A stretch of 43,780 bases of DNA, from assembly GCA_022600345.1 (NCBI GenBank), contig JAHZKP010000121.1, forward strand, positions 1 to 43,780. The letters run 5' to 3'. The notes under the pieces are model-generated. The model worked only from the letters and a program-made list of their open reading frames with translations, made no database searches and was not told where the DNA came from. Shown piece after piece: positions 4,927 through 43,780 of the stretch. The translations under genes were made by a program, and so were the position numbers. Source of the DNA: Alphaproteobacteria bacterium. GTDB lineage: Bacteria > Pseudomonadota > Alphaproteobacteria > Rhizobiales > Hyphomicrobiaceae. The first letter of the stretch is position 1. Each line of letters opens with the position of its first letter.

Positions 4927-5841
4927 TCATTGATCCGACGAACGCTCTGGCTTATCTGCCTCATCGCCTTGCTGCAAGGCTTCGATCTCCTCGCCCTCAA
5001 TGTCGTCTTCCAAATCAAGATCACCTTGAACGTCATCTTCGGGATCATCGAGCGGCAATTCATCGGGCATCAAGGCGGCAACATCGCTTGGCTGGGGAAC
5101 CATGAAGTCGGCAGGCAATTGCGAGGTTAATAGGCCCGATCCGCGCAAATCGCTTAAGCCGGGAAGGTCGCGCACACTGTCCATGCCGAAGTGTTCAAGA
5201 AACATCTCCGTCGTCCCATAGGTCACGGGCCGACCCGGTGCCCGCCGGCGGCCCCGCGGCCTGATCCAGGTCGTCTCAAGCAGAATGTCAAGAGTTCCAG
5301 CCGACGTGCTGACGCCGCGAATTTCTTCGATTTCCGCCCGAGTCACCGGCTGGTGGTAGGCAATAATCGCCAAGGTCTCCAAGGCCGCTTTCGATAACCG
5401 CCGCTCATCGGAGACTTCGCGTTGCAACAGATACGAAAGATCGGGCGCCGTTCGAAACGACCACCGCCCCGCCACCCGGACCAAATTGACCCCCCGCGAC
5501 TCGTAGCGATCCTTCAGTTCCATCAACAACGGCAACGGATCGTCGCCGGGAGCGAGGAATTCAGCAAGCTTATTTGTCGTCACAGACTGCGAAGTCGAAA
5601 ACAACAGTGCTTCGAGGATGCGGAGTTTCTCCTCGCGTTCCCGGTGCGCTTCATCCGCCCCCCCAATAGCCAAAACGGCCGGCCGCTCTGGAGAATCCGC
5701 CTCATCGCCCGGCCCCGCGATGTCGCCTTCGGCTTTATCCTGACGCGAGGCCGCTGCTTCCGGCGTTCCCTCGGTCTGGGTATCGACCAACCGCAATTTG
5801 GGCGGCTGGCCTGGCCGGTGCATGTCATTGTCAGCCGTCAT
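4927..5841 (-). CDS. scpB: Segregation and condensation protein B
   Basis: ScpB is a dimeric winged-helix protein that binds ScpA and, with SMC, forms the bacterial condensin. The conserved core is clear: ALETLAIIAYHQPVTRAEIEEIRGV, then TLDILLETTWIRPRGRRR and PGRPVTYGTTEMFLEHFGM. The protein is 304 residues, longer than the usual 180-250, because of an about 70-residue disordered N-terminus and an about 60-residue very acidic C-terminus (runs of Asp/Glu). The ATG at 5841 overlaps the scpA stop as ATGA, which points to translational coupling and settles the start. Confidence 0.95.
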   Translation of the reverse strand: MTADNDMHRPGQPPKLRLVDTQTEGTPEAAASRQDKAEGDIAGPGDEADSPERPAVLAIGGADEAHREREEKLRILEALLFSTSQSVTTNKLAEFLAPGDDPLPLLMELKDRYESRGVNLVRVAGRWSFRTAPDLSYLLQREVSDERRLSKAALETLAIIAYHQPVTRAEIEEIRGVSTSAGTLDILLETTWIRPRGRRRAPGRPVTYGTTEMFLEHFGMDSVRDLPGLSDLRGSGLLTSQLPADFMVPQPSDVAALMPDELPLDDPEDDVQGDLDLEDDIEGEEIEALQQGDEADKPERSSDQ

Positions 5842-41410: not shown

Positions 41411-42384
41411 CGTTCTCGCTCACAGACGACAAGCGCGGCGGCTTGAACGGCTGGCTCGAAGCCGCGCTGTTCGTCCTGGCCATCTCCACCCTCACCGTCA
41501 TTTACGCCATCGCCCAGCAATCGGGCGCCCACATCGTCGTCTTCATCCTCTATGCGATGGGAATATCGGCAGCCGCGATGCTCGCCCTCACCGGACTGGG
41601 CGAACGCCCCCTCAGAACGGCCTTCGCGCGCCAAAGCCTCGTCTTCGGCTTTTCAACCGTCATGCTGGAGGCGTTCTACTTCCTGCTGCTGGGCATCCTG
41701 ACACCGGCCGAAACCAGCCTGGCCCTCCGCCTATCGGTGCCCGTATCGCTACTCATCGGCTGGCTGTTTTACGCCCGCGACATGTCACCTCGCATTTGGC
41801 TGGGCTCTGCAATTATCGTTGCCGCCGTCGTCCCGGTCCTACTGTCGGTAACCGGCGGCGACCGCCTGGTTGCTGCCGTCCTCGCGCTGATCTGTTCGTT
41901 GATCGTATCGATCAAGACCTTTGCCAGCGAGTTCCATCCCGCCAACCAGGCCGCCCGCAACGTACACGATAAACTACGCGTCACCGGCCTCGTCGTCATG
42001 TCGACAACCATGATCTCCGCAGCAGTTCTTCTGCCGCTTGTCTTGCTCAACGCAACCGGCTTCATCCCCGGCTCCGCCTTCATCCCCGCGCCTGCGGATT
42101 TTCTTCACCTGCCAACCATAGTCACCGCCATTGTGCTGGGCGCACCGGTCTTCGTTGCCATGACCTACCTGACGTTTTCTTCCGTCGTGAAAATCGGAAC
42201 CGAAAGCTTCCTGGCCACGAGCGCTTTCACGCCGATTGCAGTCCTCGCCATTGAAAGCGCCGCCGCCGCCTTCGGCCTGCTCACACTTGGAAAATTCGAC
42301 ACCGCCCTGATGCCCTACCTGATCTTAGGCATCCTTGGCGTCCTCATCGTCGTCCACGCCCGCCATCGCCCCACACGACTTTAG
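41407..42384 (+). CDS. DMT/EamA-like inner-membrane permease
   Basis: A 325-residue protein of about ten hydrophobic segments, laid out as two five-helix halves, as in drug/metabolite (EamA) transporters. The first helix spans about 17-33 and the last ends near residue 320. The second half has SSVVKIGTESFLATSAFTPIAVLAIE, the typical EamA shape of a helix ending in a conserved Pro. Sequence similarity is not strong enough to name a substrate. It begins with ATGA overlap on the rsmD stop and is the last gene of the rluB-rsmD string. Confidence 0.75.
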   Translation: MTFSLTDDKRGGLNGWLEAALFVLAISTLTVIYAIAQQSGAHIVVFILYAMGISAAAMLALTGLGERPLRTAFARQSLVFGFSTVMLEAFYFLLLGILTPAETSLALRLSVPVSLLIGWLFYARDMSPRIWLGSAIIVAAVVPVLLSVTGGDRLVAAVLALICSLIVSIKTFASEFHPANQAARNVHDKLRVTGLVVMSTTMISAAVLLPLVLLNATGFIPGSAFIPAPADFLHLPTIVTAIVLGAPVFVAMTYLTFSSVVKIGTESFLATSAFTPIAVLAIESAAAAFGLLTLGKFDTALMPYLILGILGVLIVVHARHRPTRL

Positions 42385-42394
42385 AAAGTGTGGG
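42370..42394 (+). terminator. Hairpin over the permease stop codon
   Basis: CCCACAC (42370-42376) pairs with GTGTGGG (42388-42394), with the stop codon in the loop, which itself can pair further (CTTT/AAA). What follows is A-rich rather than T-rich, so an intrinsic terminator is not proved. Confidence 0.35.
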
Positions 42395-42908
42395 CAAAAA
42401 ACAAACCCCACTCGACTTTAGAACATGCCTATCCCGTTAGTTCCGCTAGTACTGCTAGAGGCGACGGGGGGACGCTCGCCTTCAATGGCAAACGGCCGCC
42501 GGTCCTTGCAAACGTCCCATCCCCCACAACGTCATGGCCGAGCAGTCGGCCATCCACGCAAGGTGCTGTAAGGGCAGACGTTTTTGTGTTCGCGAAGGTT
42601 GAAAGAGGTGCCGGAGCGGGTGGCGTCAAGGAGGGCTGGTAGCGGTTCCCTGAGGCTTGCATGGATCCCGTCCGAACGACGGGATGACGGAGGTGGGGGA
42701 GGTGATTTGGGTGGCGCTTCGCGACAGCAATCACTGTTCGATGGCGAGAATTGCAGTCCGGACCAAAGGGGATAGGCATGACTTTAGAAAGTATGGCGCT
42801 TTGCTTCAGCAAAGCGAGTGCGACCTATCCACATTTGAAAGTGGTTCTGCGGCAGGTGCATTTTTTCTACGAAAAAATCACCGGGAGCCTGCGCCACCTC
42901 CAACGTCC
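42385..42908. repeat. Gene-free region of dispersed palindromic repeats
   Basis: No credible gene. Two perfect 8-bp hairpins are clear: ATGGCCGA-GCAG-TCGGCCAT at 42534-42553, in a context (GTC...CCATCCACG) typical of a Hyphomicrobiales intergenic repeat, and ATCCCGTC-CGAAC-GACGGGAT at 42665-42685, in a GGATCC...GATGACGG context of another. An 11-bp inverted pair (42425-42435 and 42769-42779) encloses about 330 bp, and a CTTTAGAAAGT string lies near both of its ends. Confidence 0.7.
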
Positions 42909-43274
42909 CAACCGCGAGCCAAGCAACGCTCACCCCCACCTGGGAATGCCACGATCACTTGGTCCCGAGCGTAGCGGGTGCGGTGCTGCTGTCGATTGCA
43001 AACCGGGCCCAAGAGATGCCATTCCGTCCTCCCCCGTCAAAGGGGGAGGAGCCGCAAGACGTTCGGTGTGGTGGGCCAAGGTTTGAACTGTCAGGAATAC
43101 GCCCGGTCTATTCGTCCCGGGTTTGTACCCCTGGATTGTACCATCTCGCAGTCCCTGATCTCACAAGGGGAGGACGCCGTCGGCTCCTCTCCCATCGCGC
43201 TGAAAGCGCGTCTTCGACACGACGGGGAGAGGACGGGCTGCCATGACTTGCAAGCGACCTGGCGACCGATACCG
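42909..43274. repeat. Terminal structured repeat, copy 1
   Basis: A 366-bp unit that recurs at 43427-43780 (518 bp further on). It contains a stem CCTCCCCC/GGGGGAGG (43028-43049) and a stem CCTCTCCC/GGGAGAGG (43186-43232) whose loop carries an extra CGCGCT/AGCGCG hairpin. Indels between copies shift reading frame, so it is non-coding. Confidence 0.85.
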
Positions 43275-43327
43275 ACCATGCGAATGTCAACGGCCGCGTC
43301 TTGGCGTTTGCAAGTCATCTTGGCAGC
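43237..43327. repeat. Inverted repeat at the end of copy 1
   Basis: GCTGCC-ATGACTTGCAAGCG (43237-43256) faces its reverse complement, with a 3-base insertion and one mismatch, at 43305-43327; the spacer is 48 bp. The second copy starts the same way at 43740 but the window ends before the matching arm would appear. Confidence 0.7.
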
Positions 43328-43426
43328 GCTAGGTGAGGGGGGATGGGGGAATCGCGGCATTTGGCAGGTCAACTTGAAGCTGGCGGTCTAAATGATCCTG
43401 GCGCGGATAGGAGGGGGTATCCGCGT

Positions 43427-43780
43427 CAACCGCAAGCCAAGCATCGGACACCCCCGCCTGGGAATGTCACGATCACTTGGTCCCTGGCGTTTCAGGTGCG
43501 GCGCTGCTGTCGATTGCAAACCGGGCCCAAGAGATGACATTCCGTCCGCCCCCCTCAAGGGGGCGGAGCCGCAAGACGTTCGGTGTGGTGGGCCAAAGCT
43601 TGAACAGTCCGGAATGCTCACGGTCTATCCTGGCTGGGATGTCCCCGGTCTGTACCCCTGGATTGTACCACCTCGCAGCCCCTGCCCATGTCTCACAAGA
43701 AGAGGACGCCGTCGGCTCCTCTCCCCTGGAGGGAGAGGACGGGCTGCCATGACTTGCAAGCGCCCTGGCGAACGATACCG
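43427..43780. repeat. Terminal structured repeat, copy 2 (cut by the window edge)
   Basis: Same order of segments as copy 1, with scattered substitutions. Its first stem is CCGCCCCC/GGGGGCGG (43546-43566): relative to copy 1 one T-A pair has become G-C on both sides, a compensatory change. Its second stem (43718-43738) has a 5-nt loop instead of the 31-nt loop of copy 1. Confidence 0.85.

Follow-up and report, generated by a model that had tools for sequence, protein, structure and literature searches.

A dispersed two-hairpin repeat, probably of the REP/BIME type, at the end of an alphaproteobacterial contig

What are the two long non-coding repeats that close this contig, and what keeps their stems paired? 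The window, i.e. the whole stretch of DNA analysed here, comprises 43,780 bases and is the entire contig C6 of a 4.09 Mb assembly in 156 contigs; the second copy stops at the contig end, an assembly gap. A preliminary description had reported two non-coding copies at a spacing of 518 bp, with conserved stem-loops, frame-breaking indels and a compensatory T-A to G-C change, and had treated them as one structured unit of more than 350 bp. Most of this holds. A repeat search of the window recovered the blocks 42909-43045/43427-43563 (88%, spacing 518), 43040-43111/43557-43628 (89%, spacing 517), 43114-43157/43641-43684 (91%, spacing 527), 43159-43193/43691-43725 (94%, spacing 532) and 43225-43274/43731-43780 (96%, spacing 506), whose spacing differs because of indels between the copies; BLAST merges them into one match of 354 bp at 80%. 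As the offsets between the copies move by 1 to 26 bases, protein coding of the repeat can be rejected. The base-pair swap can be read straight from the sequence (T43030-A43047 versus G43548-C43564), and the larger stem holds a counter-example, with C.C (42949/43019) in copy 1 and T-A (43467/43537) in copy 2. The part that did not stand is the single unit: when the repeat and its upstream DNA were mapped on 37 stretches, the pieces around 42909-43060 and around 43225-43360 were found to travel separately. A single RNA of ~350 bp is therefore rejected, and the repeat is a composite of two opposite-facing elements of ~127 nt and their spacers:

42909..43426, + strand: composite repeat 1, unit A (+) then unit C (-), plus spacers (repeat search, BLAST, orientation analysis)
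42931..43058, + strand: unit A copy 1 (alignment A1, hand-written structure, covariance model R1 at 131.2 bits)
42931-42941, + strand: C-rich head of unit A copy 1
42943-42966 / 43005-43025, + strand: arms of hairpin H1 of unit A copy 1, the 5' arm bulged by 3 nt, the loop variable
43027-43050, + strand: hairpin H2 of unit A copy 1
43177..43341, - strand: unit C copy 1, a two-hairpin element with an enlarged H2 loop (R1 91.1 bits, model R2 90.6 bits)
43193..43224, no strand: insert of ~32 nt in the H2 loop of unit C, found apart from unit C in other genomes
43427..43780, + strand: composite repeat 2, stopping at the contig end (repeat search, BLAST)
43449..43575, + strand: unit A copy 2, in which the H2 pair 43548/43564 is G-C (alignment A1, structure, R1 137.8 bits)
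43709..43780, - strand: unit C copy 2 (R1 56 bits), its 5' end lost at the contig end

Aligned in opposite orientation, units A and C prove to be diverged versions of one element, which consists of a C-rich head, the long stem H1, the letters GTCC and the short, G+C hairpin H2; a third version, B, was recovered with a covariance model. The core of H1 reads GCCA-bulge-T.ACTTG / CAAGT.ATGGC around a variable loop. Many units carry a 3-nt bulge with GA at its end (CGA in 44, GGA in 9 and AGA in 5 of 82 sequences, the remainder being varied, shorter or letterless), which suggests a recognised structure; the 38 of 38 rows with CGA in alignment A2 are a flattered figure, since A2 is without the C copies, three of which have AGA. 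No run of T follows H2 when the alignments are inspected by eye, and an intrinsic terminator is thus rejected. Rfam reports two tRNAs alone at gathering scores across the whole window and, for 42300-43780, one chance-level match below its gathering score, hence no credible family. The ~32-nt insert in unit C (CATCGCGCTGAAAGCGCGTCTTCGACACGACG and variants) is a separate, tiny dispersed insert in its own right (window 43193-43224; L032, L033, L035-L038, L041), which recurs in several congener stretches and, in two other genera (G022, G033), occupies hairpin loops of a similar kind; in one congener it is found, by eye, inside an apparent transposase or integrase gene.

The units are arranged in a regular manner. 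In a set of 103 matches at E<=0.01 from 56 sources, all 39 neighbour pairs counted at gaps of -20 to 250 bp alternate in orientation, 27 of them head-to-head and 12 tail-to-tail; the genome of the window contributes 19 head-to-head and all 12 tail-to-tail pairs, and its relatives 8 of 8 head-to-head. This count leaves aside wider gaps and three overlapping pairs on opposite strands (L063, L070, L161), and beyond the 250-bp limit there is one exception, a pair at L087 with 320 bp between units of the same orientation. The family thus has the BIME-like trait of palindromic units that alternate in orientation, and the window repeat is itself a chain A+ C- A+ C-. The spacer measures 29-31 nt in seven B-A pairs. 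In another genus (G019), six pairs lie 15-30 nt apart and their heads are able to pair with each other, so that the predicted pairing may permit a five-hairpin dyad as one of several possible forms; when the G019 pairs shown are folded as RNA at minimum energy, the two H2 pair together around the core instead of adopting the five-hairpin form.

Do the stems covary beyond the one pair described initially? Among the 28 A copies, two pairs have both sides changed, in 23 cells; the cells and the covariation score beat 500 of 500 shuffles, and the numbers of both-side pairs (reached by 323 of 500) and of further pair types (499 of 500) are not above chance. With 38 A and C copies, there are 8 of 25 pairs (reached by 61 of 500 shuffles) and 79 cells (0 of 500). 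In a set of 82 matches from six genomes, whose alignment was fitted to the structure and in which related copies are counted many times irrespective of phylogeny, the figures rise to 18 of 25 pairs and to 311 cells (no shuffle among 500 reaches either), with 94.8% of cells paired, further pair types being reached by 35 of 500 shuffles; slid controls yield at most 6 pairs and 47 cells. Covariation in further copies, the check proposed in the preliminary description, therefore extends to far more than one pair, and the conserved stem-loops are real. That description had named dispersed repeat DNA, with neither covariation beyond one pair nor transcription, as the refuting case: the dispersal applies, the lack of covariation does not, and the repeat is both structured and dispersed.

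The composition of the pairs, by contrast, is no proof of an RNA. All 1945 cells of the 82 sequences include 22 G.T (16 of them at one closing pair), 39 A.C and 63 other mismatches; outside this closing pair, 1759 Watson-Crick cells stand against 6 G.T, 37 A.C and 62 other, which indicates no wobble tolerance on this strand. Nearly every covarying pair is of the Watson-Crick kind, and a palindromic DNA element would account for this equally well. Were an RNA of this strand under selection, G.U cells should outnumber A.C cells, so that the pattern favours a constraint at the DNA level or on two strands; the A.C cells would read G.U on the opposite strand, where an RNA constraint may exist. A control with nine tRNAs (183 Watson-Crick, 3 G.U, 0 A.C) is too small to weigh much. 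Folded as single-stranded DNA, unit A copy 2 lies below its shuffles (z -2.50, 0 of 200), copy 1 weakly so (z -1.54, 15 of 200), and five other sequences reach z -2.69 to -5.70 (0 or 1 of 200 shuffles).

Within its own genome, the family is abundant: model R1 finds 73 matches (E<=0.01), and BLAST with the 518-bp repeat 60, many of them partial. With strict filters, R1 matches occur in 14 of the 59 genomes of the set of relatives, i.e. in 13 of 58 besides its own, and in 0 of 8 congeners; many R1 matches in more distant genomes cover only ~45-60 nt and may be unrelated hairpins. The second model, R2, upholds five carriers besides the own genome in a family search at E<=1e-5, with matches in 6 of 39 genomes including its own (its own, G000, with 69, G019 11, G013 8, G017 7, G015 1, G022 1) and none in the other 33, among them the R1-positive G029, G032 and G033. 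Order-wide, R2 detects at least 3 of 199 genomes at E<=1e-6 (its own, G015 and G035, the last without an R1 match), a lower bound given that 17 candidates were scored per genome. Plasmid and phage collections contain no blastn match to 42909-43578, and a plasmid or phage origin is rejected on these grounds.

Where the units reside was examined with genes from a simple codon-score caller and comparison gaps of >=40 bp. The 46 clusters of the own genome comprise 27 with a gene on one side only, 13 in convergent, 5 in codirectional and 1 in divergent gaps; convergent gaps thus account for 13 of the 19 clusters with genes on both sides, versus 14 of 145 other gaps (Fisher p 5e-8), and gene 3' ends for 55 of 65 flanking ends. 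The relatives show no preference for convergent gaps (1 of 7 clusters, against 5 of 20 gaps); among them, 3' ends make up 13 of 23 flanks and two clusters lie within called genes. Presence or absence at orthologous sites could be followed at two of three loci tried, synteny being broken at the third (L081), and at each of the two the gene pair is adjacent without the unit in 6 of 8 congeners. At L080, ~490 bp separate the two convergent genes that enclose a B-A pair, and their aligned counterparts in those congeners are 8-223 bp apart; the 223-bp gap, in G003 (L199), holds what by eye is an apparent CGTC-type REP pair. At L074, the gene interval is ~556-595 bp versus 43-133 bp. Since the gene pairs nearly abut without the element, it appears to insert, as judged against congeners whose flanking genes show 67-76% identity. 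At both loci, other small repeats also lie within the added DNA, and in principle all six congeners could instead have lost the element. When the flanks of 11 pairs were aligned and checked by eye for target-site duplications, the ends varied and other repeats adjoined. Beside the units at L074 (~5235-5420) lies another dispersed hairpin repeat (CTCGCCAACATTCGGCAGGC...), which also occurs in congener stretches, with partial matches in G001, G003, G004 and G005.

Several explanations for these observations can be weighed against each other. If the units were transcribed, from a promoter of their own or by read-through from both convergent genes, they could form 3'-UTR hairpins for mRNA stability or termination, and selection on the RNA would keep the stems. 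The stem covariation, the location at gene 3' ends in the own genome and the 3'-UTR REPs of Bradyrhizobium, which the available text of PMC5082802 describes as detected in RNA, are consistent with such a role. The scarcity of G.T relative to A.C cells argues against it on this strand (the other strand would turn A.C into G.U), as do the missing T-run after H2, the Rfam result and the eight congeners without an R1 match, and we regard a structured RNA as unlikely. Stem matching might also arise free of selection. Within quasi-palindromes, template switching rewrites one arm from the other, so that compensatory changes arise in a single step. The double changes are indeed nearly devoid of G.T intermediates, with pair 17/143 being T-A in 40, C-G in 35 and unpaired in 1 case, but the same process should erase the bulge, and yet the GA-ending 3-nt bulge is common among the 82 sequences. 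As a full account it seems doubtful, if somewhat less so than an RNA, and it may combine with the explanation we favour.

An older mobile element could have left the repeats as well, namely as terminal repeats of a RAYT- or TIRYT-type element, with a Y1 transposase gene since lost. According to the available text of PMC3733652, published TIR repeats are likewise single, paired or grouped, some are doubly palindromic, and they share a GGGGWSAS motif; H2 of unit C contains GGGGAGAG. However, Y1_Tnp (PF01797, RAYT-type) has 0 matches in the own genome, in a search whose control found 5 of 14 genomes positive. It occurs with 17 matches in 12 of the 59 genomes of the relatives set, of which G017 is the sole one also with R1 matches; 12 of the 13 other R1-positive genomes thus lack it, and ten loci around 10 of the 17 matches contain no unit at E<=1. 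We consider this origin improbable. Chance or an assembly artefact at contig ends might be suspected because 36 of 66 best matches in the own genome, at 24 distinct ends, lie <=700 bp from a contig end, a region that makes up ~5% of the genome; the other 30 are internal, the same anatomy recurs in other genera, and assemblies break at repeats, which together make an artefact exceedingly improbable.

We therefore favour a different reading: the repeats probably represent a REP/BIME-type family of palindromic DNA elements that are intergenic and non-autonomous. Beyond what was observed directly for the family (dispersal, alternation, stem covariation, 3'-end location in its own genome, and presence or absence at orthologous junctions), a mechanism can be proposed. 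A putative trans-acting enzyme would recognise the hairpins by their conserved head, stem core and bulge and copy or move the units. The units lie in inverted pairs that line up as alternating arrays, the 518-bp repeat being one of them, and such arrays might grow through tandem duplication. Copies would persist chiefly in convergent gaps, where they may be least harmful and, if transcribed, might serve as 3'-end hairpins, and template switching may add to the matching of the arms.

How does the family relate to known repeats? Its layout and location resemble those of GTAG and CGTC REPs, but tag, size and hairpin number differ, so that we file it as a new variant among palindromic intergenic repeats. 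As the available text of PMC3733652 has it, BIMEs or REPINs (GTAG type) are palindromic units, often close and in opposite orientation, mainly downstream of genes and uneven among species. The two-hairpin units share all of this, but a BIME/REPIN has one palindrome of 20-40 nt, the unit here two hairpins in ~127 nt; GTAG REPs/REPINs have an unpaired GTAG tag and a RAYT, whereas the A1 and A2 consensus is without GTAG and no RAYT was found. CGTC REPs are described in the same text as mostly alphaproteobacterial, mostly head-to-head dimers and with no dedicated transposase known, again as here. Their layout is an unpaired CGTC, a stem of 8-9 bp with A-T pairs almost always first and second, a loop of 4-5 and a CCA-type tail (PMC3733652). 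In our units, by contrast, most bases of the CGTC ahead of H2 are paired (the C, the T and the final C in 28/28, 27/27 and 28/28 of A1), the H2 stem has 9 bp but starts T-A, C-G, C-G, no CCA follows, and there is a second long hairpin. RIME and the Sinorhizobium A, B and C palindromes are likewise rhizobial intergenic repeats with conserved secondary structure (PMC2573895; PMC2873474, available text), a likeness based on comparison by description, not sequence. Br-REP1 of Bradyrhizobium, which has three palindromes per repeat and lies where the 3'-UTRs of convergent genes overlap (PMC5082802, available text), is similar in having several palindromes and in its location, and its published 20-nt core is, by eye, unlike the stems here.

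The literature searched, largely papers accessible without subscription, yielded no description of the two-hairpin unit. Tentatively, and with slightly less than even confidence, we suggest a third REP-like class beside GTAG and CGTC, comprising a five-hairpin dyad with a bulged stem, a moving enzyme unrelated to RAYTs and a recent expansion in this lineage; the order of the dyad may be H2-H1-head hairpin-H1-H2, over ~265-290 bp in tight pairs. Given that CGTC repeats are apparently without a dedicated transposase in the available text of the 2013 survey (PMC3733652), the family bears on how palindromic repeats without a RAYT spread. It supplies a defined unit of two hairpins, several subfamilies whose stem changes match, two occupied/empty gene junctions, and 73 matches here versus none detected in congeners. 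A driver can thus be looked for in the gene content of carriers as compared with that of non-carriers.

Lastly, an element of ~390 bp (42408-42796), bounded by inverted ends of 22 nt (42424-42445/42759-42780), lies near the repeats and recurs, whole or in part, at L070:5060-5450, L086:5217-5616, L091, L078 and L058. Inside it, 42662-42689 (- strand) fits, by eye, the published CGTC REP layout of CGTC, stem, 5-nt loop and CCA.
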